From Alkalihalobacillus sp. CinArs1 (GTDB taxonomy: Bacteria; Bacillota; Bacilli; Bacillales; Guptibacillaceae): DNA of 64,000 bases. The notes below the pieces were generated by a model. It was given only the letters and a program-made list of their open reading frames with translations, had not been told where the DNA came from and did not search any database. Within the stretch, counting starts at the first letter, position 1, and each line of letters opens with the position of its first letter. Positions 18,600-32,213 of the stretch are shown here, piece after piece. The stretch spans positions 1,364,001-1,428,000 of the forward strand of contig NZ_CANDOB010000001.1 of NCBI RefSeq assembly GCF_947387515.1, written 5' to 3'. The translations under genes and the position numbers were made by a program.

Positions 18600-19301
18600 C
18601 TACTGCTGTGCATAGTAATAATAGTAACTACCTTCTTTGATCTTCTTTCGATTTAAAACGACTCCCAGTAATTTACTACTTGTACTTTCTAACCGTTCTT
18701 TAGCCTTAATTGCTGCTTCTTTCTCTGTTGTTTCACTACTAACTACCAAGACCGTTCCCTGAACCTTATTAGCTATAATTTGAGAATCTGCAACTGCGAG
18801 AATTGGCGGACAATCGAAAAGAATAATATCATAATAATTTTGGGCTTCTTCAATTAATTCATCCATAGCTTTGGATCCTAGTAACTCAGAAGGATTTGGA
18901 GGAATGGGTCCGCTCGTTAAAACATGAAGGTTCGGCACTTCAGTTTCATATGTAACTTCTTTTAATTTTGCCTGCCTCGTTAGTACATTTGTAATCCCTC
19001 TAGTATTCATTGTGCGAAACGTATAATGAACAGTTGGCTTTCTTAAATCTGCATCTACAATAAGGACACGTTTACCCTGTTGAGCCATAACTACTCCCAA
19101 ATTGGCGATTGTAGTCGATTTACCTTCCATTGGCCCAGAGGATGATATCATTATTGTAACCATCTCTTTATCTAAAGAAGCGAATTGAATATTAGTTCGA
19201 ATCGTTTTGAACTGCTCTGCAATTGGTGATTTAGGATTTTGATGAGTTAATAAACTTCTTTCTTTTGCAACAGTGATTGATTTTCTATTTTTACGACTCA
19301 A
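18600..19301 (-). CDS. capsular/EPS tyrosine-protein kinase (CpsD/CapB/EpsB-like)
   Basis: Cytoplasmic BY-kinase of 233 residues starting at TTG behind GGAGGG. Walker A is SSGPMEGKSTTIANL (about 53-67), Walker A' is VLIVDADLRKPTVH, and Walker B is DIILFDCPPIL. The C-terminus carries a five-Tyr cluster before a short tail, the autophosphorylation site in this family. Its start overlaps the end of the membrane adaptor gene by 11 bases. With the adaptor it should control polymer length and export, and the PHP phosphatase upstream would reverse phosphorylation. Confidence 0.93.
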   Translation of the reverse strand: MSRKNRKSITVAKERSLLTHQNPKSPIAEQFKTIRTNIQFASLDKEMVTIMISSSGPMEGKSTTIANLGVVMAQQGKRVLIVDADLRKPTVHYTFRTMNTRGITNVLTRQAKLKEVTYETEVPNLHVLTSGPIPPNPSELLGSKAMDELIEEAQNYYDIILFDCPPILAVADSQIIANKVQGTVLVVSSETTEKEAAIKAKERLESTSSKLLGVVLNRKKIKEGSYYYYYAQQ

Positions 19302-20031
19302 CTGCTTCCCTCCTCATGGATTTTTTCATTTTTTTTGTTCGAGAGCCAACCTCTTTGTCACTAATGACTGCAATTGTGCCAAGGACTGGTAACCCAAGTA
19401 CTTTCTCAATATCATCTTCATCTTTAATAGTGTTATCAAGGAATTCAAGTAAAAACGCTAGTCCTACACCCACCATTAATCCCACAACTAAGGCAATTGC
19501 CATATTTAAAATTGGATTTGGATTGACTGGAGAAGGTGTTCCTTCAAAATTCGCCTTTGAAAGTATACTAACGTTATCCACATTCATTATTGAAGTAATT
19601 TCCTTTTCAAAAACACTCGCTGTTGTATTAGCTATTTTGACAGCAAGTGCAGGGTCTGCATCATTAACTTCAACTGATACTACTTGTGAGTTCTGTGCAT
19701 TGTTAACAGAAATCTTTTCATTTAATTCACTTGTAGACATATCTAAATTTAGGTCTTCCACTACCTGATCTAGAATGGTGGGACTCTTTATAATTACACT
19801 GTAAGTGTTAATCAGTTCAACATTAGTTCTAACCTGATTATAGTCAAAACCGTTTTCTGAATTGGCTTTTTGATTTACAAGAATTTGAGTGGATGTTTGG
19901 TAAATTGGGGTTAATAGGAAATAAGAGACGATTCCGCTAGTTGCTGTAGCAACTAACGTGATAAGTAGAATAAGGGAGAGTCGTTTTTTTAGTACTTCGA
20001 ATATTTCCTTCAAGCTGATTGTTTCTTCCAT
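19291..20031 (-). CDS. chain-length determinant/kinase activator (Wzz, YveK/CapA-like)
   Basis: Membrane adaptor of 246 residues with the Wzz layout: N-terminal transmembrane segment (about 18-40), an extracellular domain, then a proline-rich stretch NPNPILNMAIALVVGLMVGV leading into the second transmembrane segment. The start at 20031 is chosen because GGAGG lies 7 bases upstream and METISLKEIF-type sequence then opens the Wzz domain. An earlier in-frame start would add 22 odd residues. It activates the tyrosine kinase encoded next. Confidence 0.9.
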   Translation of the reverse strand: MEETISLKEIFEVLKKRLSLILLITLVATATSGIVSYFLLTPIYQTSTQILVNQKANSENGFDYNQVRTNVELINTYSVIIKSPTILDQVVEDLNLDMSTSELNEKISVNNAQNSQVVSVEVNDADPALAVKIANTTASVFEKEITSIMNVDNVSILSKANFEGTPSPVNPNPILNMAIALVVGLMVGVGLAFLLEFLDNTIKDEDDIEKVLGLPVLGTIAVISDKEVGSRTKKMKKSMRREAVES

Positions 20032-20124
20032 TAGATGCCTCCAGCAAAATATAAAAATTTTAGTTTTAAGAGTAACATTTTCCAGTACAGATTCCACTAT
20101 AACACAGAAAACCCTCGAATTTTA

Positions 20125-20145
20125 GGTGGATTTTCGATATCCACC
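20125..20145. repeat. inverted repeat between phosphatase and Wzz genes
   Basis: GGTGGA and TCCACC flank a 9-base loop in the 246-base gap between the phosphatase and Wzz genes. No T-tract follows on the minus strand, so it is not a simple terminator. A TATAGT-like -10 box lies about 25 bases further downstream on the minus strand, so a regulatory site for the wzz-kinase genes is possible. Confidence 0.3.
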
Positions 20146-20277
20146 CCCACGAAAATAGTATTAGTACGAATTACCCGTTCTTTTTTGTCGAATATTAGCG
20201 AAGAAAAGGCTTGCATTGCTGTTTTCTTAATTTTCGTGTCGAAAGTTTTTTTCTGTTACTTTTTCTGTCATATTTTC

Positions 20278-21045
20278 TTAAAATATTCCTAAGAATTTCT
20301 TACGCTTGATTTCTTGTGGTAGTTCTTTCGATACCATTTTTCCTTGGATCATCTCTTGCGCATTTTCTTGCAGCATATACCTTGTCGACATGTCGAATTC
20401 TCGTTCGACTGACTCCATTGCATTTCTTAAGTCAAAAGGCCTATTTGTGATGTTATGAGCGTCAGATGCAACAAAGTGCGCAAGGTTATGATGAATTAAA
20501 TCCATAGAGAACTTTTGAATTTTCTTACCCATCTTTCCAGTAACGCTTGAGCCGGTCAGTTGACTCAGTGCTCCTTCTTTTATTAACTTAAACAGCCGGT
20601 CAGGATTCTCCATAATTTCACGATTTCGCTCAGGGTGGACAATAACCGGGATAATTCCATTTACTTGGAGATCAAACAGGAGCTTATTTGCATAGCGCGG
20701 AAGATGACTCGATGGAAATTCGATCAACATATACATTCCAGTATCATTCACTGTCAACAGGTCTTCACCATTAATATCCTCTATGAGTTCTCCATAGATC
20801 CGGTTTTCTTGACCTGGTAGAATCTCTATATCGATTCCCTCTTGCTGTAACTTTGTGTTTAACAAACCAACCTCATTTAATATAGTAGTTTTGTCATTTT
20901 CAAAAGAACCATTTCTGTGGTGTGGACTAGCTACGATTTTTGTAATCCCCTGCTCATAGGCTTGCCTAGCCATAGCCAAACTATCTTCTATCGTTTTCGC
21001 TCCATCATCTATTCCTGGTAGAATATGTGAGTGAATATCGATCAT
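20278..21045 (-). CDS. PHP-type tyrosine-protein phosphatase (CpsB/CapC/YwqE-like)
   Basis: Manganese-dependent phosphatase of 255 residues that dephosphorylates the EPS tyrosine kinase. The PHP metal sites are visible: MIDIHSHILPGIDDGAKT at the start, VASPHHRNG at about 45-53, VHPERNREI and ASDAHNITNRP. The start at 21045 uses AAAGGGGAG upstream and puts the metal-binding DIHSH at residue 3, as in homologues. An earlier start would add nine residues. It leads the EPS gene run and is divergent from the LCP gene. Confidence 0.93.
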   Translation of the reverse strand: MIDIHSHILPGIDDGAKTIEDSLAMARQAYEQGITKIVASPHHRNGSFENDKTTILNEVGLLNTKLQQEGIDIEILPGQENRIYGELIEDINGEDLLTVNDTGMYMLIEFPSSHLPRYANKLLFDLQVNGIIPVIVHPERNREIMENPDRLFKLIKEGALSQLTGSSVTGKMGKKIQKFSMDLIHHNLAHFVASDAHNITNRPFDLRNAMESVEREFDMSTRYMLQENAQEMIQGKMVSKELPQEIKRKKFLGIF

Positions 21046-21085
21046 ATGATGCTCCCCTTTCAAATTTTGCACTATCCTATTAGAG

Positions 21086-21100
21086 TAGCATATTCTGCTA
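21086..21100. promoter_or_regulatory. palindrome in the EPS-LCP divergent intergenic region
   Basis: TAGCA-TATTC-TGCTA is a perfect 5-bp inverted repeat about 41 bases upstream of the phosphatase start. It could be an operator for the EPS operon. I could not assign a clear -35/-10 pair to it. Confidence 0.3.
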
Positions 21101-21187
21101 TCGTTTTTTGAAATTTCTCACCAAAACAACTGTTTAACTTTACCATATTTCCCGGTTTTGTCTATTCCTTTTTGTTTTTGGAAGGTA

Positions 21188-21217
21188 TTTACTTTGCGTT
21201 TTACTTGGACGTATAAT
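21188..21217 (+). promoter_or_regulatory. putative sigma-A promoter of the LCP gene
   Basis: TTTACT (21188-21193) and a perfect TATAAT (21212-21217) with 18-base spacing lie about 60 bases before the LCP start codon. The -35 match is only moderate. Confidence 0.45.
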
Positions 21218-21277
21218 AAAGATTAGGACTTTGCACTTATTTGAATTTATTACGTTATAGAAAGCTGGAATGTATTT

Positions 21278-22183
21278 ATGAGAAAGTTCTTACTAATTAC
21301 CGGTATTATCATGGGAGTACTTTTGATTTCGGCTGGGGGATATGCTTTCTACCTATATTCTTCAGTGAAAGATACGGCTAGTACGATGCATGAGCCAATC
21401 GATCGTGAAACGTCAGCTAAACGAACTGAAAACGTAAATATGGCTGAAAAAGATCCGATTTCCATTCTTCTCGTAGGCGTCGATGAACGCTCGAACGATC
21501 AGGGGCGATCTGATACGATGATTATGATCACCCTTAACCCTAACGATGAGTCGATGTATATGTTTAACTTACCACGTGACACCAGAACAGAGATTGTAGG
21601 CCGCGGGACGATCGAAAAAATGAACCATGCCTATGCATATGGCGGCGTTGAAATGACGATGGATACGGTTGAAAACTTTTTGGATGTCCCAATCGACTAT
21701 TATTTCAAAGTAAACATGGAAGCATTCAAGGATGTTGTGTCAGCACTCGGAGGCGTAACTGTCGACAATCCTCTCTCTTTTGACTATGAAGGATACACCT
21801 TTCCCAAGGGTGAAATTGAGTTAAATGCACAAGAAGCTCTTGCGTTTTCACGAATGCGATACGAAGATCCAAAAGGCGACCTTGGTCGAAATGATCGTCA
21901 GCGCGAAGTGATTAAAGCCATTATTAATGAAGGCGCAAGTGTTGGAAGTATCAATAAAGTAGGCACGCTACTTGACGCTGTTGGCAGCAACGTAAAGACG
22001 AACATGACGTTTGAAGAAATGAATAATATTTTCCAGAATTATAGAAGCGCACGTAAGAATATGAATACGTTTGAAATCAACGGTCATGGCGAAATGATCG
22101 ATAACCTTTGGTACTACATCGTACCTGAGCAAGAGAAACAAATGATTACACAAAAATTAAAAGATCATCTAGGAATCAGCTAA
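21278..22183 (+). CDS. LytR-CpsA-Psr (LCP) family cell-wall polymer ligase
   Basis: Membrane-anchored enzyme of 301 residues that moves lipid-linked anionic polymers (teichoic acid or capsule) to peptidoglycan. It has one N-terminal transmembrane helix (about 4-26) and the LCP domain from about residue 60. Visible are ILLVGVDERSNDQGRSDTMI, the arginine-bearing NLPRDTRTEIVG, and the downstream AFSRMRYEDPKGDLGRNDRQ. It lies divergent from the EPS operon, so attaching that polymer to the wall is the natural guess. A 19-bp terminator follows at once. Confidence 0.93.
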   Translation: MRKFLLITGIIMGVLLISAGGYAFYLYSSVKDTASTMHEPIDRETSAKRTENVNMAEKDPISILLVGVDERSNDQGRSDTMIMITLNPNDESMYMFNLPRDTRTEIVGRGTIEKMNHAYAYGGVEMTMDTVENFLDVPIDYYFKVNMEAFKDVVSALGGVTVDNPLSFDYEGYTFPKGEIELNAQEALAFSRMRYEDPKGDLGRNDRQREVIKAIINEGASVGSINKVGTLLDAVGSNVKTNMTFEEMNNIFQNYRSARKNMNTFEINGHGEMIDNLWYYIVPEQEKQMITQKLKDHLGIS

Positions 22184-23728: not shown

Positions 23729-24241
23729 GTGATTCTTTTACCGACGGTTTGGTTGACCCTATTAATTCTTTTTTATTTTTATCAAAAACAATATAAAGAA
23801 GAACTACAGTTACTGCCAGCGTTGGATGAGGTCAGCGTCGCTACTACGACTCATCCGATCGTTGGGAAGAGTGTTAAGCACCAGCTGATCGAGTCATTCT
23901 CTTCACCATATTCTATTATTCTGGTTGCAAGTGAACGTTGTAACTACTGTGAGCCGGAACTTGAGGAACTTTTGTTAGAAAATAGAACGGCTCAGCTGCC
24001 GGTCTTTGTTGCCGTTTTAGATGAAGAAGGAAAAAGCGATTCAAAATATACGAAGTACGATAACGAGGTCGCACTCTCAAAAGTTGAAGAAGACACGTTA
24101 AAGAAGTACTCGATTTATGAATTCCCAACACTGCTGTTAGTCGATGAGAAAGGAGTCGTACTGGAGGCATCGGGTTGGAATCGAGCGTTATTCGTACACT
24201 ATGACATGTTATTGAAAGGAGGTGGAAGAGATGTTGAATAA
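23729..24241 (+). CDS. membrane-anchored thioredoxin-like protein with CNYC motif
   Basis: A 170-residue protein starting at GTG behind GAAGGAG with 8-base spacing. One N-terminal transmembrane helix (about 2-18) is followed by a thioredoxin-like domain exposed outside. VASERCNYCEPELEELL (about 66-82) carries the redox CxxC and YEFPTLLLVDEKG carries the cis-Pro loop. It probably oxidises or isomerises disulfides. Its end overlaps the start of the six-Cys peptide gene by 11 bases, so the two are translationally linked, and the peptide is the obvious substrate (inference). Confidence 0.8.
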   Translation: MILLPTVWLTLLILFYFYQKQYKEELQLLPALDEVSVATTTHPIVGKSVKHQLIESFSSPYSIILVASERCNYCEPELEELLLENRTAQLPVFVAVLDEEGKSDSKYTKYDNEVALSKVEEDTLKKYSIYEFPTLLLVDEKGVVLEASGWNRALFVHYDMLLKGGGRDVE

Positions 24242-24407
24242 GCTTTTAGGTGTGAAGCCGAATGCGTATCCTTGTGACTCAAAAATAAAGCGCAGTTACT
24301 GCGGTGCTACTTGTAACACAGTAGGAGACCGTTCTTGGCAGACGTCTTATTATGATAGCGTTACAGGGAAAACGTGTAAGACGATCTATCATTCTTGCTC
24401 TTGCTAA
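24231..24407 (+). CDS. six-cysteine secreted peptide precursor, 58 residues (bacteriocin-like or Mau-small-subunit-like)
   Basis: The ATG at 24231 has AAGGAGGT 7 bases upstream; a GTG at 24222 overlaps that site and is unlikely. The product has Cys at 15, 24, 28, 49, 56 and 58, one Trp (36), many Tyr/Ser/Thr, and ends TIYHSCSC. The first 14 residues, MLNKLLGVKPNAYP, could be a short leader. There is no double-glycine motif and no Sec signal peptide. Flanking redox proteins and an exporter imply a disulfide-bonded secreted peptide. The spacing of Trp, Tyr-Asp, Gly-Lys and the C-terminal Cys loosely recalls methylamine dehydrogenase light chain, but with one Trp it cannot form a tryptophan tryptophylquinone. 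Function unknown; a bacteriocin is the leading idea. Confidence 0.7.
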   Translation: MLNKLLGVKPNAYPCDSKIKRSYCGATCNTVGDRSWQTSYYDSVTGKTCKTIYHSCSC

Positions 24408-24420
24408 TCTAGTCATTACA

Positions 24421-24446
24421 TAGACCAGGGATTCGTTCCTGGTCTA
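24421..24446 (+). promoter_or_regulatory. stem-loop between peptide gene and exporter gene
   Basis: TAGACCAGG and its complement form a 9-bp stem with an 8-base loop, followed by AAAAAC rather than a T-tract. It lies 14 bases after the peptide stop codon and 24 before the ABC exporter. Such hairpins after precursor genes often protect the short mRNA or let the peptide be made in excess. It does not look like a full terminator. Confidence 0.55.
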
Positions 24447-24469
24447 AAAACTTATTTGGCGGTAATGCG

Positions 24470-26254
24470 ATGGATATGACTTACTTAAAGAAAAGTTTCG
24501 CTTTCATTTGGAAAATCAGTCCCTTATGGTTTTTAGCTTCGATCCTCATTCGAGTAATCACAGGATTACTACCATTAGCTGCTTTATGGGTGACGAAGGA
24601 ACTCGTCAATGCTGTTGCTGCGATCATCACATCAGCGGACCCTGATTACGAACATGCTTTTATCTTTCTAAGTCTTGAACTTCTCATCGTCGGTCTAGGA
24701 TCCACCCTTCGGCATGTTTCCGAGATATTCGATGAGCAAATCGAAATCAAACTAGACTACAGAGTGGGGAAGCTTGTTTCAGATAAAGCAGCATCCGTAC
24801 CACTCAGCTATTATGAAATACCTGAATTTTATAATCACCAGGAACGCATAAGCGGCAACTATGGAAACAAGCTTATGTCACCGGTGAAAAACGTGCTTGA
24901 TCTTGGTCAGTACTCGATCAGCTTAATTTCTTATCTCTCTTTCTTATTGTCATTCCACTGGGGTCTCATGATATTAAGCTCCATCGCAGCAATTCCGATT
25001 TTACTCATGCAAACTCGTTTCGGGAACGAGAAGTTTTTCTTATTAAAGTTTCAAACTCGAAAAGCGCGAGAAGCCAATTTCTTAAATAACCTGCTGCATG
25101 ATCGGCAATCGGCTAAGGAGATCCGACTCTTTAACCTCGGTCAGCGCTTTATTTCGAATTGGGGACGCTTGTTTTTAGAGAACAATCACGAGATCCTCGC
25201 GTTGTTAAAAAAGGAAAAAAAGGTGCAGATCATATTAGATTTCTTTACTGCCGTCTTGTACAGCCTCTCTGCTGCCGTTGTCATCTGGCTGTTAAGAAGT
25301 CGCTCGTTAGGAATCGGAGAGTTTGTGTCGATCGGGCAAGCGATCAAAGGCTCTCAATCTTCCTTAAACATGATTGCATCCAACCTTGCAAGAATATATG
25401 AAGAAAATTTATACATAGAAGATTTATTCGAGTTTCTCGATTTTCGCGATGAACGGTACACGTTGTCTCATCTCGACCGGTCCACTCCGTTTCCAGAGAA
25501 GCTTCAAAACGGTATCTCAATCAGAAATGTGAGCTTTTGGTACCCGGATAGTGACAAAATGGTGCTCGATAATGTTAGTTTTACGATTTCACCTGGAGAG
25601 AAGGTCGCGATCGTCGGGGATAACGGGTCTGGGAAGACAACCCTTGTGAAATGTTTATTGGGCATGTACCCAGTCAGCACCGGTGAGATCGTTGTTGATG
25701 GCATGAACATCAATGAATACGATCCTTCTACGCTGAAGAATAGTATGACAGGCATTTTTCAAGACTTTATGCAGCTGCCTTTCACTGTTCGAGAAAACAT
25801 AACGCTAGGCGACATCGATCGTGATGATGATCTTTTGATGCGCAAAGTAGTCAAGCAGTCTGGTATTTTCGATACGATTCAGAAGTTTCCCGATCAGTTT
25901 GAGACGAGGTTAGGCAAGCTTCTCGGTGACGGAGAAGATTTATCAGGTGGACAATGGCAGAAGCTTGCGTTAGCACGTGCGTTATTCAGTAAGGCGAACA
26001 TCATTATACTCGATGAACCGACAGCGTCACTTGATCCGTTAACCGAGCTGAAGATATTCGATCAGTTCAAACAGATCACAGAAGATAAAACGACGATCTA
26101 TATTTCACATCGCATGGCAGCAGCACGGCTTGCCGACCGCATTCTCGTGATGAAAGCAGGCAAAGTAGTCGAGGTAGGAAGTCACGAAGAATTGATCGCT
26201 CGTGGCAATGACTATTACGACATGTTCACGAGCCAGGCTCAATGGTATGCATGA
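24470..26254 (+). CDS. ABC transporter, fused permease-ATPase (peptide exporter-like, no C39 peptidase)
   Basis: A 594-residue half-transporter: membrane domain with about six helices (roughly 15-330), then an ATPase with Walker A VGDNGSGKTTLVK (about 379-391), Q-loop GIFQDFMQLPF, signature LSGGQWQKLALARAL and Walker B IIILDEPTAS. It lacks the N-terminal C39 peptidase of double-glycine bacteriocin exporters, so it resembles lantibiotic-type or McjD-type exporters. Placed right after the six-Cys peptide gene, it is the likely export pump for the peptide; its gene ends just before the MauE-like gene's ribosome binding site. Confidence 0.85.
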   Translation: MDMTYLKKSFAFIWKISPLWFLASILIRVITGLLPLAALWVTKELVNAVAAIITSADPDYEHAFIFLSLELLIVGLGSTLRHVSEIFDEQIEIKLDYRVGKLVSDKAASVPLSYYEIPEFYNHQERISGNYGNKLMSPVKNVLDLGQYSISLISYLSFLLSFHWGLMILSSIAAIPILLMQTRFGNEKFFLLKFQTRKAREANFLNNLLHDRQSAKEIRLFNLGQRFISNWGRLFLENNHEILALLKKEKKVQIILDFFTAVLYSLSAAVVIWLLRSRSLGIGEFVSIGQAIKGSQSSLNMIASNLARIYEENLYIEDLFEFLDFRDERYTLSHLDRSTPFPEKLQNGISIRNVSFWYPDSDKMVLDNVSFTISPGEKVAIVGDNGSGKTTLVKCLLGMYPVSTGEIVVDGMNINEYDPSTLKNSMTGIFQDFMQLPFTVRENITLGDIDRDDDLLMRKVVKQSGIFDTIQKFPDQFETRLGKLLGDGEDLSGGQWQKLALARALFSKANIIILDEPTASLDPLTELKIFDQFKQITEDKTTIYISHRMAAARLADRILVMKAGKVVEVGSHEELIARGNDYYDMFTSQAQWYA

Positions 26255-26268
26255 TCGGAGGTGTCATG

Positions 26269-26835
26269 ATGGAACTACTCGTTCTTTTCTTACGGATAGG
26301 GCTCGCCTCTATCCTCTTAACATCTGCCTATACAAAGATTAAAGAGATGGCAGGGCATATCGAAAGTATAAGAAACTATCGAATCCTGCCTTCAAAGCTC
26401 GTTAAAACCGCTGGATACGTGGATGTAACGGTAGAACTACTGCTCGGCACGTGTATTCTAGTCGGACTGCTTTTTAATGGCAGCGTTGCTATTTCTATTT
26501 TGTTGATCGGAACCTATACACTAGCCATCGTCATCAACCTTAAAAGAGGGAGAACTGACCTATCGTGTGGATGTGGCGGGATCGTTGGGGAAAACCTCCT
26601 TTCATGGAGGCTTGTTTTGCGGAACGTCGGCATCATGATTGGCGCTTCTCTTCTCTTCTTCAGTCAAGTTGATCTAGGTATGCTTGATGCGGTATTGAGC
26701 GGAAAGTCGATTCGCGACGTTTATCCTGAATCTTTCTTTATTGCGTTTTGCGGGGGATGGGTAACGCTGATCTGCATCATCATCGTGCGTGAAGTCACAA
26801 CGCTAAGGAAGCATTTTAAAAGATTGCTAGCGTAA
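26269..26835 (+). CDS. MauE/DoxX-like redox-associated membrane protein
   Basis: A 188-residue protein with about four or five membrane helices. The start at 26269 is chosen because GGAGGTG lies 5 bases upstream; the adjacent ATG at 26266 is also possible. It opens LLVLFLRIGLASILLTSAYT-like, typical of MauE, and carries the paired cysteines DLSCGCGGIVGENLLSW after the fourth helix. MauE and MauD are known to be needed for disulfide-rich methylamine dehydrogenase light chain in methylotrophs. Here it should pass electrons or disulfides to the thioredoxin-like partners. Confidence 0.8.
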   Translation: MELLVLFLRIGLASILLTSAYTKIKEMAGHIESIRNYRILPSKLVKTAGYVDVTVELLLGTCILVGLLFNGSVAISILLIGTYTLAIVINLKRGRTDLSCGCGGIVGENLLSWRLVLRNVGIMIGASLLFFSQVDLGMLDAVLSGKSIRDVYPESFFIAFCGGWVTLICIIIVREVTTLRKHFKRLLA

Positions 26836-26849
26836 AGGAGGATACAAGA

Positions 26850-27389
26850 ATGAACTGGCAGCTACTGTCTCATATTGGTTTATGGCTCTTTCTATTCTTT
26901 CAATTTGCTATATTACTATATTTTCTGAAGCAGGTTACCCACTTTCTTAATCGGTTTAGAAGCAGTGGTGGAACAGTTGAGGAGAAAGCGTTACGAATCG
27001 GTGATCCAGCACCGCTTTTTCGCTCGAAGGATCAAAACAATCGTCTTCTTTCTATGAGTGAGTTAAATGGAAAACACACGATCATGATCTTCAGGAGTGC
27101 AACATGCCCCACTTGCTCAACACTACTGAGCAATGTGCCACACCTTGCAGAACAATTCGAGGCGAACATGCTTATTGTTTCACAGGAAAAATTAGGGAAG
27201 GAATTTTGTCCTTCTATCGCTAATACTTCTTATATAGTCGCTCCAGAATTATTTGAAACGTATTATATTAAAAAAGTGCCGACCATCTTTATCATCGACC
27301 CGAGTGGTAACGTCGCAGCTACTGGCGATATGAATGAACTCGACAATCTATTACGCTTCGTTCCGTTGGCCGCCAATATCGCACAGTAG
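26850..27389 (+). CDS. MauD-like membrane-anchored thioredoxin
   Basis: A 179-residue protein with an N-terminal transmembrane helix (about 8-28), then a TlpA/AhpC-type domain: RIGDPAPLFRSKDQNNRLLS, redox site SATCPTCSTLL (about 88-98) and cis-Pro loop KKVPTIFIIDPSGNV. The CPTC site and helix match MauD-type disulfide proteins. It sits 14 bases after the MauE-like gene. It is the second thioredoxin-like protein in the cluster, so a reducing and an oxidising branch may coexist. Confidence 0.82.
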   Translation: MNWQLLSHIGLWLFLFFQFAILLYFLKQVTHFLNRFRSSGGTVEEKALRIGDPAPLFRSKDQNNRLLSMSELNGKHTIMIFRSATCPTCSTLLSNVPHLAEQFEANMLIVSQEKLGKEFCPSIANTSYIVAPELFETYYIKKVPTIFIIDPSGNVAATGDMNELDNLLRFVPLAANIAQ

Positions 27390-27406
27390 AGACAAGGGGG
27401 ATCTAC

Positions 27407-28354
27407 ATGGTACGTTCTTTCTTCACAAGAACCGCTATCCAATTCTTACTCACATCGATAGGGATCTTTCTCATCGGCTCCCTTCCCTATCTTCTTTTCA
27501 ATATGGAGTCGCAGCTTGAAGTCCTCAAGATGATCGAACGGAAAGAACTCAATAATACGCTCTTTCTATCAGATAACATCGTGATGAATGTAGGTGCTTA
27601 TGTTACGAACATCATCGATACCATCGCGGTGATCTTCTCAGGAAATGCCGATCAGTACTATGCGCGTGGTGGCGTGTGGCCGCTGTTCCCTGAGTTTTGG
27701 GAGGCCTATCTTCAGTCGATGCAATATTTGATCGCATCTCTATTCATAGCGCTCGTGGCAGCAATTCTCCTGACGATCTTAACGATGTTATTACCCACTC
27801 ACAGAAGGAGATTACCGAAAGCGTTCCTTTTTGTAATGGAATCATTGCCTGATATTTTTATTATTCTCATTACACAGATCACGATCATTTGGATTTATAA
27901 AAAGACGGAGATTCTGTTATTTAACATTACGAGTGGATTCGGAGAACAAGCGATTCTTCTCCCGATCCTCGTTCTCTCATTTCTCCCTGCCCTCTACATC
28001 TATAAATACTTGCTGCTATCGTTTGAAGATGAAGAGAAACTTCTCTACGTGGAGCTTGCGCGAGGCAAAGGATTGAATCGTAGTCGCATCTTACTCATAC
28101 ATATTTTTAGAAATTCGATTTTCACTCTCTTCAACCATTTCAAAGGCATCTTCCTTTTTGCATTAGCGAACCTTCTGATGCTTGAAGTGATCTTTGAAAT
28201 AAAAGGATTTATGACCTTTATTTTTCAAAACGGGGTTCTCAATAACGAGATCGTTACGATGGGATTATTTATGGTGTTCCTTCCATCTTTTCTCTTTTTT
28301 ACGGTTACACAATGGTTCTTAGAAAAATCCTTTAATGTGATGGGTGATCCTTAA
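27407..28354 (+). CDS. DppB-like ABC permease subunit, divergent
   Basis: A 315-residue membrane protein with about six helices and the binding-protein-dependent permease EAA loop VELARGKGLNRSRILLIHIF (about 216-235). It resembles DppB/OppB, but the usual large extracellular segment differs and the sequence is divergent. RBS AAGGGGG lies upstream. It overlaps the next gene by one base (TAATG). No oligopeptide-binding protein or DppD/DppF ATPases are nearby, so it may use ATPases encoded elsewhere or have another role such as immunity or peptide uptake. Confidence 0.75.
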   Translation: MVRSFFTRTAIQFLLTSIGIFLIGSLPYLLFNMESQLEVLKMIERKELNNTLFLSDNIVMNVGAYVTNIIDTIAVIFSGNADQYYARGGVWPLFPEFWEAYLQSMQYLIASLFIALVAAILLTILTMLLPTHRRRLPKAFLFVMESLPDIFIILITQITIIWIYKKTEILLFNITSGFGEQAILLPILVLSFLPALYIYKYLLLSFEDEEKLLYVELARGKGLNRSRILLIHIFRNSIFTLFNHFKGIFLFALANLLMLEVIFEIKGFMTFIFQNGVLNNEIVTMGLFMVFLPSFLFFTVTQWFLEKSFNVMGDP

Positions 28355-29352
28355 TGAAGAAGCTGATTAAACAACCGATGGTCACTGGAGGCACCTTGTT
28401 CATCGTCCTCCTTCTCGTTGGAAGTTTTTTGTATAGTGCGCTGGTTGAACCTCCGAAACCGGAGAAGATGCTATACGACAGTAACGGCGATATCATTGCG
28501 TTAGCCCCTTTCCCGCCGTCAGCACAGTTCCCTCTAGGTAGTGACATCGACGGAAATAACTTTATGCTGAAACTTCTGGAAGGAGCGAAGTTTACGATTG
28601 GCCTGTCGATTCTCGTGGCGTTAGGAAGGATCGTTCTTTCTGCGATCGGGGGCTATTTACTGTTCTTACTCCCCGGGTCTTTTCGTAAATTTCTCGCTGG
28701 TCTCGCAGATACGTTTCACTATGCTCCTGTTACGATCTTTACATATGTACTGATCGCACCTGTCGTGATGACGTTCAGCTGGAGCTACAGTACGCCGACG
28801 AAGATCATATTCCCTATGCTCGTTCTCGTGCTTATCAGTGTCCCAGTGTTGTCGCTATACGTACAGAAAGAACTCGACCTCATCGCGCAGAAAGAGTTCA
28901 TCGATAGTGCCAAAGTGATGGGTGGAAGTCACTTTCATATTTTCAAAGCCCACATGGCGCCGTTCTTAAATCCGAAACTGTTGATCATTTTCATTCAGCA
29001 AGTCGGACAAGTACTGATTATCTTTGCCCACCTCGGGTTATTGAAAGTATTCATTGGGGGAACAGACGTGAGAGTCCTTGAATATGACTTCGAAACTGGA
29101 GATGCAACGACTGCTTCATTTTCTATGTCAAACGAATGGGCAGGCTTGATCGCGCAGAACTTTCAGTACGTGAATTCCTTCCCGTGGATGATCCTTGCAC
29201 CAGTGACGGCATTTGCGCTGACGATTCTTGCAATAAACGGCATCGTGTATGGATTGAAAGCGAGTCCGACTTATAGAAGAAAGAAGAAGAAGGCTAAAGC
29301 ATCTAGTCCGAGCTATACCGTTAGTGCGGAGAGCTTTGAGTTGCGGAATTGA
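28354..29352 (+). CDS. DppC-like ABC permease subunit, divergent
   Basis: A 332-residue partner of the preceding gene, translationally coupled to it. Its EAA loop reads FIDSAKVMGGSHFHIFKAHM followed by APFLNP. An N-terminal transmembrane helix (about 12-31) and the segment PSAQFPLGSDIDGNNFMLKL match OppC/DppC, where PLGTDxxGRD precedes the second helix. The usual Arg is missing. The C-terminus is basic (RRKKKKAK). A terminator follows, so it ends the peptide cluster. Confidence 0.75.
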   Translation: MKKLIKQPMVTGGTLFIVLLLVGSFLYSALVEPPKPEKMLYDSNGDIIALAPFPPSAQFPLGSDIDGNNFMLKLLEGAKFTIGLSILVALGRIVLSAIGGYLLFLLPGSFRKFLAGLADTFHYAPVTIFTYVLIAPVVMTFSWSYSTPTKIIFPMLVLVLISVPVLSLYVQKELDLIAQKEFIDSAKVMGGSHFHIFKAHMAPFLNPKLLIIFIQQVGQVLIIFAHLGLLKVFIGGTDVRVLEYDFETGDATTASFSMSNEWAGLIAQNFQYVNSFPWMILAPVTAFALTILAINGIVYGLKASPTYRRKKKKAKASSPSYTVSAESFELRN

Positions 29353-29359
29353 TGATGAA

Positions 29360-29391
29360 GGGGATCAGGCATGTGCCTGGTCCCCTCTTTT
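29360..29391 (+). terminator. terminator at the end of the peptide cluster
   Basis: GGGGATCAGGC (29360-29370) pairs with GCCTGGTCCCC (29375-29385) with one mismatch around ATGT, followed by TCTTTTTAATT. It belongs to the GCCTG(A/G)(C/T)CC hairpin family seen repeatedly in this window. Confidence 0.8.
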
Positions 29392-29502: not shown

Positions 29503-30513
29503 GTGTTAACGATTAAAAATGTTGAAAAGCAGATTAGCGATAAACTAGTTCTCCCAGCGTTTGATTTGGTTATCGAAAAAGGCGAGACCGTTGCACTTCA
29601 TTCCAACATGAGTGTCATTAGCGAATTGCTTAAAGGTTTCACTGGTCGTGACCGAAGTTTTCAGAGATCTATTCAACTAGACGGCAAGAACATTTCAAAA
29701 CACAATTCTGATATTGGCGTGTCCTTCTTAAAAGGTGGCGTTTATGAACGATTAAGCGTTCTCGATAACTTTAAATTTTATAGAGGATTATACAAGTCGA
29801 ATTTACGTATTGAAGATGTTCTTCACCTTGTACAGCTTGAAGATAAGAAGAATGTAAAAGTTAAAAAACTTACCTATTCAGAAGAAAGAAGGATCCAATT
29901 CGCTCGCTCCCTCTTTCAGAATCCGCTGCTGTTTGTTTTTGAAGAGCCCGATCAGAATGTCGATATGGAAACGAAAAGGGTGTTTCTCAAACTTGTCACC
30001 TATTTAAAGCAACAGCAAAAATGTGTATTGATCCTCACAGGAAACATAGAAAGTGCGATTACACTTGCGGACATTCCATATCGTTTGAATGAAAATGGAT
30101 TACACGGTTTAGAAAGTGAAGACGACACATCCTCTGAGGAGTCAGAGGACGAAGAAGCTGAGCCGAACGTTTCACCCTCTATTCACTTTAGGAAGATTCC
30201 TGCCAAAGTTGAAAAGAAGATTTTATTGTTTGATCCTACGGAAATCAATTATCTCGAGAGTTCTGGAGGGGACGTTACCATCCATGTGAACGGTGAGGAG
30301 TTCCAGGGGTTTTTCAGTTTAACGGAATACGAAGAAAAGTTAGCTTCATATGGTTACTTTCGCTGCCACCGCTCATATCTCGTAAACTTAGAAAAAGTAA
30401 CCGAAGTCATCACTTGGACAAGGAATGCGTATGGCCTCATCCTTGAAGATTCATCAGAGCTTCCACTGTCTAAGAATAAAATGGCGACATTAAGAGAGAT
30501 ACTCGGCATTTAA
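29503..30513 (+). CDS. degenerate ABC ATPase fused to a LytTR DNA-binding domain
   Basis: A 336-residue protein starting at GTG behind GAGGGGGAG. Residues 1-205 look like an ABC ATPase but lack a Walker A: the site reads ALHSNMSVISELLKGF with no GxxGxGKS. The signature is LTYSEERRIQFARSL, and the Walker B LLFVFEEPD is partly kept. Residues about 235-336 form a LytTR domain, including EINYLESSGGDVTIHV, FFSLTEYEEKL and the conserved FRCHRSYLVNLEKV. It is probably a transcription factor for the ABC exporter encoded 140 bases downstream, sensing exporter state or ligand through the dead ATPase. Confidence 0.82.
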   Translation: MLTIKNVEKQISDKLVLPAFDLVIEKGETVALHSNMSVISELLKGFTGRDRSFQRSIQLDGKNISKHNSDIGVSFLKGGVYERLSVLDNFKFYRGLYKSNLRIEDVLHLVQLEDKKNVKVKKLTYSEERRIQFARSLFQNPLLFVFEEPDQNVDMETKRVFLKLVTYLKQQQKCVLILTGNIESAITLADIPYRLNENGLHGLESEDDTSSEESEDEEAEPNVSPSIHFRKIPAKVEKKILLFDPTEINYLESSGGDVTIHVNGEEFQGFFSLTEYEEKLASYGYFRCHRSYLVNLEKVTEVITWTRNAYGLILEDSSELPLSKNKMATLREILGI

Positions 30514-30654
30514 CATGCTCCATTCGGATAAAAATAGACACCATTCATCCCTGCCAATGCTCCATTTAACTTTTTCAGCCTCCGTTTGACGGGATTTTAA
30601 TGCCTCCTTATCGGTCGTTCTGTAATCTTAGGTTACAAACAACGAGGAGGTATG

Positions 30655-31506
30655 ATGTTGGAGAATATCATAGAGGTACGTTCATTGATGAAAGCATTTG
30701 GTAATCAGGTGGCATTAAATGAAGTGGATTTCTCAGTAAAGAAAAAAGAAATCTTTGCGTTTCTAGGACCAAGCGGTTCTGGAAAAACGACGACGATTAA
30801 AATTTTGACGGATCAACTTTCACCTACTGATGGTGAAGCTACTGTATTCGGTATAAGCTCCCATCGATTAACAAAGGAAGGTGCGCATCGCAGAATCGGC
30901 ATTTTAACCGATAATAGCGGACTGTATAATCGACTATCAATCTACGATAACCTTAAGTTGTACTGCGAGCTTTATGGGGTTACACATGCTCGTATCACAG
31001 ACGTGTTAGAAATCGTAAATTTACAAGATGAGCAGCAGAAGGTTGTTTCTCTGCTATCTAAAGGGATGCTGCAACGCGTTCTTCTTGCGAGAGCCCTTTT
31101 GCATAAACCAGACCTTCTTTTTTTAGATGAGCCGACCTCAGCCCTGGATCCTGCTAACTCGAGACATATTTACCGTGGCTTGCGTGAGCTGAATAACGAA
31201 GGAACAACGATCTTTTTGACGACGCACGACATGAGCGAAGCAGAGTTACTTTGCGATCGAGTTGCGTTTCTTCATGAAGGGAAGATTCAGTTACTCGATG
31301 AACCGAAGAAGATAAAAAGACAGTTCTCAGATTCAACGATTACGGTGGAGTTAAACGATGGAAGGAAAGTTGTTATGAAGAATGGACCAGAAGATGCTGA
31401 ACGAATGCATCAGTATATGTCGAGCAGCCAGGTCGCCTCGATCTATTCAAACGAGCCGACGTTAGGAGACATCTTCATCAACGTGACAGGGAGGGAATTG
31501 GTATGA
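30655..31506 (+). CDS. ABC transporter ATP-binding protein (drug/peptide efflux type)
   Basis: A 283-residue ATPase with Walker A LGPSGSGKTTTIKIL, signature LLSKGMLQRVLLARAL (degenerate LSKG), Walker B LLFLDEPTSALDP and H-loop FLTTHDM. GAGGAGG lies 4 bases before the ATG at 30655; ATG 30652 and TTG 30658 are alternatives. It overlaps the permease gene by four bases (ATGA). With that permease it forms an ABC-2 exporter, probably controlled by the LytTR protein upstream; a resistance or immunity role is inferred. Confidence 0.88.
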   Translation: MLENIIEVRSLMKAFGNQVALNEVDFSVKKKEIFAFLGPSGSGKTTTIKILTDQLSPTDGEATVFGISSHRLTKEGAHRRIGILTDNSGLYNRLSIYDNLKLYCELYGVTHARITDVLEIVNLQDEQQKVVSLLSKGMLQRVLLARALLHKPDLLFLDEPTSALDPANSRHIYRGLRELNNEGTTIFLTTHDMSEAELLCDRVAFLHEGKIQLLDEPKKIKRQFSDSTITVELNDGRKVVMKNGPEDAERMHQYMSSSQVASIYSNEPTLGDIFINVTGRELV

Positions 31507-32213
31507 CTTTTTCGATGAGGCGCGCGTATGCGATCTTCCAAAAAGATGTAAAAGATTTAACGAAAAATTTATTCGTCATCACGACTGCACTCTTACCGCT
31601 CATATTAGCCGTTTTCTACGGTACATCTGATCTTATATCGATCGAAACTCACTACACTGTTATCAACCTTACGTTCGCTGCAGTAGCCGTCTTTATTCAG
31701 AGTGCCTTGATAGCTGAAGAGAAGGAGAAAAATACGTTAAGAGGACTCATGCTTTCCCCTGCCACGCTATCAGAGATTCTCGGTGGCAAAAGCGCGCTAA
31801 CGTTCCTTTTTACAATCGCGACGATCGTTGTTTGTTCCTTCATTACTGGGTATGAGCCTTCGAATCTAGTTGTAGTAGGATTTGCTATTCTTCTTTCCAC
31901 GGTGTTTTATATCGCGCTGGGTACGCTTGTGGGATTGCTATCGAAGTCCGTCATGGAAGCCTCGGTCATGGTGCTGCCGGTGATGTTTATTTTCGGATTC
32001 GGGTCGGTCCTGCAATCCTTCGCGGACAAATATGCGATTCTAGCATTTATCGAATATATGCCGAACGTGCAGCTTATCGAGTTAGCGAACAAAGTGGAGA
32101 ATAGTGTAGGTATGACTGAATTCTTGCTACCTTTATTCGTCATCGCAGGATGGGCGGTTGTTACCGGCATATGCGTAGTCATAATGTATAAGAAAAGAGC
32201 TTTGGATGATTAG
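31503..32213 (+). CDS. ABC-2 type transporter permease
   Basis: A 236-residue membrane protein with six predicted helices and the ABC-2 motif region AEEKEKNTLRGLMLSPATLS (about 71-90), where LSP is typical of efflux permeases. Translation is coupled to the ATPase gene by an ATGA overlap. A strong terminator lies ten bases downstream, ending the regulator-exporter unit. Confidence 0.87.
   Translation: MTFSMRRAYAIFQKDVKDLTKNLFVITTALLPLILAVFYGTSDLISIETHYTVINLTFAAVAVFIQSALIAEEKEKNTLRGLMLSPATLSEILGGKSALTFLFTIATIVVCSFITGYEPSNLVVVGFAILLSTVFYIALGTLVGLLSKSVMEASVMVLPVMFIFGFGSVLQSFADKYAILAFIEYMPNVQLIELANKVENSVGMTEFLLPLFVIAGWAVVTGICVVIMYKKRALDD

Follow-up and report, generated by a model that had tools for sequence, protein, structure and literature searches.

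MauE and MauD serve the maturation of methylamine dehydrogenase, and in the account of the decRiPPter survey the role of MauE is termed speculated (PMC7794033). That survey also describes Streptomyces families in which MauE, and in one family MauD as well, belongs to a putative peptide cluster that has no other mau gene; these families are predictions filtered for biosynthetic genes, a peptidase and a regulator, and we set them beside our locus by description only (PMC7794033). A similar pairing is seen with the class I lasso peptides sviceucin (SviE/SviF) and MS-271 (MslE/MslF), where a DoxX-family protein and a CxxC oxidoreductase likewise stand beside a disulfide peptide and a transporter (PMC9266682). 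Here we describe an operon in which such genes surround a six-cysteine mini-peptide, in a 64,000-nucleotide stretch of Alkalihalobacillus sp. CinArs1 (contig NZ_CANDOB010000001.1, positions 1,364,001 to 1,428,000 of the forward strand; hereafter, the window). The lasso clusters are actinobacterial, whereas the window comes from the Bacillota, encodes a peptide with six cysteines, and has no lasso cyclase (asparagine-synthetase-like) or lasso precursor among its eight scanned proteins and no lasso leader peptidase among the operon proteins.

The operon runs along the forward strand from a membrane-anchored thioredoxin-like protein (TRX) through the 58-residue peptide, an ABC exporter, MauE, a MauD-like protein and two permeases to a hairpin (Table 1). 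An earlier note on this DNA, made from its letters alone, had described the peptide, with cysteines at residues 15, 24, 28, 49, 56 and 58 and a start inside the CNYC gene, and all of this was found where it had been placed. Scans against Pfam and NCBIfam confirmed three further assignments, an exporter without a C39 peptidase (no Peptidase_C39 match), a MauE-like protein with CGCGG and a MauD-like CPTC protein; among the seven operon proteins they found no methylamine dehydrogenase, radical SAM enzyme or glycosyltransferase, as the note had held, and no dehydratase. We favor, with moderate confidence, the reading that this cassette secretes and oxidatively folds a small peptide stapled by disulfides, most probably a bacteriocin. 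The peptide would be translated from a gene overlapping that of TRX and moved out by the C39-less exporter, either unprocessed or with N-terminal trimming only; the exporter perhaps recognizes the hydrophobic N-terminus (MLNKLLGVKP...). TRX and/or the MauD-like protein, each with one N-terminal transmembrane (TM)-like segment and predicted to face outward, would then form the disulfides, three of which would use all six cysteines, and MauE would re-oxidize these partners by handing their electrons on to the membrane, in the manner of DsbB toward DsbA.

What carries this reading is recurrence. A MauE search over 397 genomes of the order (E ≤ 1e-5) gave 20 places in 19 genomes, 18 of them examined as fetched stretches and the other two being the window itself (genome G000) and locus L001 of Alkalihalobacillus algicola (G020). 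An exporter adjoins MauE at 17 of the 20, and all 17 have a small Cys-rich open reading frame (ORF) no more than 3 kb from MauE: 12 belong to the profile-supported family A of the window peptide (pattern C..C..D..TG..C..C.C), four to type B (G261, two in G024, and G068) and one to type C (G064), types B and C having been chosen by eye and the type names being our own. Over the 26 loci measured, the distance from peptide to MauE ranges from 116 to 2826 nt. These loci include non-independent kin, namely G043, G262 and G382, G024 and G068, and the three same-genus loci.

At the remaining three MauE places the neighbor is a lasso-type precursor (L066) or, in L070 and L071, a larger protein rich in Cys that follows MauD; counted with the 17 peptides, this puts a Cys-rich small or secreted product near all 20 places. 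The first is a lasso-type cluster (L066:8944-12719) with an asparagine synthase (Asn_synthase), a four-Cys precursor, MauE and a MauD-like gene, and a DppB/C pair nearby; its precursor stays under the cutoffs of the three lasso models and of DUF5972 that it matches. The proteins at the other two (L070:10603-11058, 151 aa; L071:10120-10548, 142 aa) are homologous and follow MauE/MauD. We rejected them as methylamine dehydrogenase light chains, since neither is matched by Pfam or NCBIfam and a PDB search, made with L070 only, gave no such hit.

We then searched these 397 genomes with a family A profile built from 15 peptides, scoring 16 first-look candidates per genome, such that weaker peptides may be missed. 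All 12 genomes with a strong match (E < 1e-10) are among the 19 that are MauE-positive (hypergeometric P = 2e-18); since these loci, several of them close kin, had supplied the training set of the profile, the figure tells us chiefly that strong peptides did not turn up in the absence of MauE. Weak matches came from four genomes (G096, G162, G198 and G291), the last three with no exporter match within their 3-kb loci. Further draws from two families (41 and 36 genomes) and from the class (299 genomes, 21 candidates scored in each), which overlap with the earlier ones, added five peptide genomes (G800, G867, G916, G934 and G946), and in all five the exporter, MauE, MauD and TRX stand beside the peptide, the exporter ORF of G867 (L109) being only 408 aa long. 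The window peptide alone, used as a single-sequence query, reached 152 of the 397 genomes at E ≤ 1, three of them strongly, and two of its weak matches, G058 and G099, were later confirmed as family A. The co-occurrence elsewhere that the earlier note proposed to look for is present, and no strong match stands apart from the redox and ABC genes, which the note had named as the finding that would speak against it. A dedicated export and oxidative-folding pathway for a disulfide-rich peptide, as predicted from these gene neighborhoods, is well supported; the new bacteriocin class that the note added to it is a more tentative matter, to which we return.

The distribution of the cassette is patchy. 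Of the 14 genus genomes, 3 have family A and 4 the cassette MauE, the fourth (G064) with type C; in two further families, family A is present in 3 of 41 and 1 of 36 genomes. Seven plasmids have a MauE match, and the four opened, from Priestia and Exiguobacterium, all carry an exporter, MauE and a Cys-rich peptide ORF, the three Pseudomonas/Indioceanicola plasmid matches (H4, H6 and H7) being outside these counts; tblastn of the window peptide against plasmids gave no match. In one plasmid a Tn3-family transposase gene occupies the position that MauD has in its relative, and G934 has at least two identical peptide copies and one differing copy in tandem. Mapped onto an exporter tree with 23 members, the four peptide types (A, short-N-terminus A, B and C; again our own types) need 3 changes, which is the minimum, and exporter and peptide type therefore travel together; this tree leaves out L061, L062 and L069 (close kin) and L109 (short ORF), and a second tree also L066. 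Despite differing Cys patterns, a hydrophobic N-terminus ending near Pro/Gly is common to most A peptides and to B and C, and may by this resemblance be an export signal. Taken with plasmid carriage and peptide divergence, the patchiness makes an antibacterial role likely, though unproven. Among phages, an exporter search (E ≤ 1e-60) returned only two distant records.

Two side observations belong here. G916 has, downstream of MauD, a run of three Cys-rich peptide ORFs that differ from one another (L110:8698-9792). In L076, L077, L107, L108 and L109, an ABC ATPase and a very large FtsX-like permease (about 1070 to 1400 aa) adjoin the cassette, a candidate immunity or resistance transporter.

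Several results weigh against the bacteriocin-folding reading, and they are taken together in this and the next paragraphs. ORFs with at least four cysteines arise by chance in most 18-kb stretches, and hence the support for types B and C comes from their position and from how far they resemble one another (type B peptides are 38-41% to L063, and type C resembles Priestia plasmid peptides). No separate TRX was seen at the type B loci. In G096 (E = 0.0023), the peptide, an exporter and TRX share a 4.1-kb contig with no MauE or MauD, and the MauE search gave no match in that genome. At phylum level, a search of 398 genomes gave two further MauE matches, without an exporter or family peptide; MauE may be a general disulfide helper, with a Cys-rich product near every order-level place but not at these two. 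Moreover, an AlphaFold2 model of the peptide, made from two sequences, is poor (pLDDT 54, three weak strands).

No clear immunity gene lies in the window either, and the bacteriocin role is predicted from sequence. Both points would suit a secreted disulfide peptide that is real but not antibacterial, such as a signal, a metal binder, a protease inhibitor or a surface or spore component. We consider this unlikely, though it deserves to be kept in view; competition better fits peptides of patchy distribution and high divergence that lie partly on plasmids and sometimes in tandem. The permeases could be drawn in on the same side. A DppB/C-like pair (PermB and PermC) is present in the stretch at 9 of the 20 MauE places, three of the nine sharing descent, and its nearness to MauE has P = 2e-12 if four such genes per 4.1 Mb are assumed as the background, a rough estimate; a pair of this oligopeptide-importer type could mean re-uptake or sensing of the peptide. 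In the genus, against this, it is a core pair found at a separate locus in species without the peptide, for which reason we also rejected the pair as pathway members by descent. A close PermC homologue (at least 62% identity) is found in 13 of the 14 genus genomes, nine of them without a MauE match, and the ten fetched genomes that lack family A (these nine and G064) all have it at a constant locus away from any cassette, flanked by genes of 116-121 and 715 aa (by eye, glyoxalase-like and topoisomerase-like respectively). In G000, G020 and G356 the sole close PermC copy sits in the peptide operon, and within the operon of the window no oligopeptide ATPase or binding protein was seen to partner the pair. 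The permeases that the earlier note had counted into the cluster are indeed in the operon, but from their genomic placement they are a genus-core pair relocated into the cassette and have no specific tie to the system, though they may be linked to it in function, for example through immunity or uptake.

The redox proteins invite another objection, that MauE, MauD and TRX mainly aid export, or isomerize or reduce wrong bonds, and do not create disulfides. The host genome has its own DsbB-family gene (51.3 vs 22.1 bits), and the cassette is therefore an addition. For sviceucin and MS-271, the peptides still formed, with their disulfides intact, when the thioredoxin-like or the DoxX partner was lost, the MS-271 knock-outs gave no thiol intermediates, and the SviF and MslE/MslF knock-outs still yielded peptides, with altered localization or less yield (PMC9266682). 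By analogy, DoxX and thioredoxin-like pairs may act in export or yield, and the claim that they are essential for disulfides is weakened. We nevertheless hold this account of our cassette to be improbable, more so than the non-antibacterial one. All three of its membrane-linked redox components have invariant cysteines, with the C-x-C of MauE in 26 of 26 aligned homologues, the CxxC of MauD in 22 of 22 full-length homologues, and the CxxC and cis-Pro of TRX in 17 of 17 companions (selected by hand, then aligned). Four TRX proteins (L059, L061, L062 and L065, three of them close kin) have CPHC, the motif of E. coli DsbA (PMC13252029), and MauE/MauD also stand beside other Cys-rich products (L066, L070, L071). 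In the G064 cassette, MauD is a 53-aa stub (L055:8725-8886), apparently decayed.

One might take the 58 codons for a frame that opens by chance where the thioredoxin-like gene ends, given the 11-nt overlap of the two and the peptide's lack of a family-model match, but this can practically be dismissed in view of a good ribosome-binding site (AAAGGAGG at 24215-24222, 8 nt ahead of the start), a dN/dS of 0.12 between window and L001, a Cys pattern with five of six columns invariant in 15 aligned family A members (C28 varies), and a motif missing from resampled DNA. The peptide is under purifying selection, its dN/dS falling within the operon range of 0.03-0.17; its same-genus homologues in G020 and G356 are 86% and 74% identical, and all six cysteines are retained in the three sequences. 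A search for the family A motif, which was composed after the family had been seen, finds matching ORFs in 18 of 30 target loci, whereas five first-order Markov resamples of these loci contain none; the one hit among 27 control loci, L017, is itself the G058 cassette. The peptide has a predicted average mass of 6448 Da, a basic pI of 9.0, no TM-like segment, and no GG, GA or GS ahead of its first Cys. Neither Pfam nor NCBIfam matched it; for nine relatives and the L066 precursor no cutoff of either was reached, the relatives giving only two weak Pfam matches, both for L067, and a PDB sequence search (phmmer) with the window peptide gave only four weak kringle-type matches.

Table 1. Features of the operon in the window (scores in bits)
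Feature	Position	Strand	Basis
TRX, membrane-anchored thioredoxin-like	23729..24241	+	CNYC at residues 71-74; single N-terminal TM-like segment
Six-Cys peptide, 58 aa, family A	24231..24407	+	ORF (ATG to TAA), relatives, profile, dN/dS
Stem-loop, 11 bp, peptide-exporter gap	24421..24446	+	z-scores -2.66, -2.94, -2.51 (window and two relatives)
ABC exporter half-transporter	24470..26254	+	ABC_tran 109.3
MauE/DoxX-family membrane protein, CGCGG	26242..26835	+	PF07291 85.9 vs cutoff 27
MauD-like membrane-anchored thioredoxin-fold protein, CPTC	26850..27389	+	AhpC-TSA above cutoff
DppB/OppB-like permease	27407..28354	+	BPD_transp_1 35.7 vs cutoff 26.4
DppC/OppC-like permease	28354..29352	+	20.5, under BPD_transp_1 cutoff
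Terminator-like hairpin	29359..29386	+	12-bp stem, then T-run

Some of these identities are less firm than others. TRX is below all Pfam and NCBIfam cutoffs (TraF 20.4 vs 23 bits, Thioredoxin_2 18.9 vs 27), and the DppC-like permease is matched by Opp/Nik-type NCBIfam models with E down to 1.8e-15, under their cutoffs. The stem-loop ahead of the exporter recurs in the nearest relatives, L001 (11 bp) and L054 (9 bp), and has no T-run after it; a role in mRNA stability is conceivable. The hairpin past the permeases is the probable operon end. Beyond it, at 29503-32213, lies a separate operon with an ABC ATPase-LytTR DNA-binding fusion and then an ABC ATPase and permease pair; it is present in L001 and absent from the 18-kb stretch L054, and we rejected it as part of the cassette for that absence and for its place after the terminator. 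Upstream (18600-22183), genes named by eye resemble capsule or exopolysaccharide regulation (tyrosine kinase-, Wzz- and PHP phosphatase-like), with a LytR-like gene. PADLOC gave only ATPase-type matches, to the exporter, and PHROGs a single weak match of unknown function, to PermC.

Taken as a whole, the results suggest an undescribed family of secreted disulfide-stapled peptides across Bacillales-type bacteria and some plasmids; among the open-licence papers that our literature searches listed, we recognized none on this peptide family or on MauE in Bacillales peptide clusters. A bolder view, which we put forward tentatively and would not yet bet on, is that of a distinct and widespread Bacillota class of disulfide-only bacteriocins, with several Cys scaffolds that look unrelated, no C39-cleaved leader or other modification, a common N-terminal export signal, and one exporter and MauE/MauD/TRX module in which MauE would be a substrate-dedicated DsbB-like generator. 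Common mining rules look for a GG leader, C39, radical SAM, LanM or a glycosyltransferase. If the reading is true, it adds a class of stable mini-proteins that such rules would probably miss, with MauE beside a C39-less exporter as the search handle, and the cassette offers a small single-substrate system for testing MauE function.

Sublancin, one of the peptides to be set beside the one described here, is glycosylated. Like our cassette, it has a dedicated oxidoreductase, Bdb, for an exported peptide (via PMC9266682), and gallocin A with BlpT (PMC10100652) and TMcin with TmcD (PMC13252029) likewise pair an exported peptide with a cluster-encoded thiol oxidoreductase. Gallocin and TMcin use leader removal (PMC10100652, PMC13252029), and MauE does not figure in the passages concerned with these three systems (PMC10100652, PMC13252029, PMC9266682). 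With no C39 on its exporter and no GG-type leader on its peptide, the window also differs from double-glycine-leader (C39-type) bacteriocin systems. Laterosporulin (PMC3293901) and actifensin (PMC6989792) are, like the window peptide, small disulfide-bearing products, in their case established as bacteriocins. The word "thioredoxin" is absent from both texts, in which MauE was not searched for (PMC3293901, PMC6989792); neither peptide was returned by the PDB sequence search (phmmer) with the window peptide, whose fold model is too poor to compare. Laterosporulin, too, has a transporter in which no N-terminal protease domain is significant, and it loses only its Met (PMC3293901); actifensin differs in its 32-residue leader (PMC6989792). 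With the methylamine dehydrogenase system the cassette shares MauE, above its Pfam cutoff, and a MauD-like protein, both of which would serve a Cys-rich exported product; unlike that system, its operon has no dehydrogenase match, and its MauD falls far below the NCBIfam cutoff of the MauD equivalog TIGR02661 (52.3 vs 188.6 bits), hence MauD-like only. What is new here is the peptide family and the pairing of a C39-less exporter with MauE, MauD and TRX.

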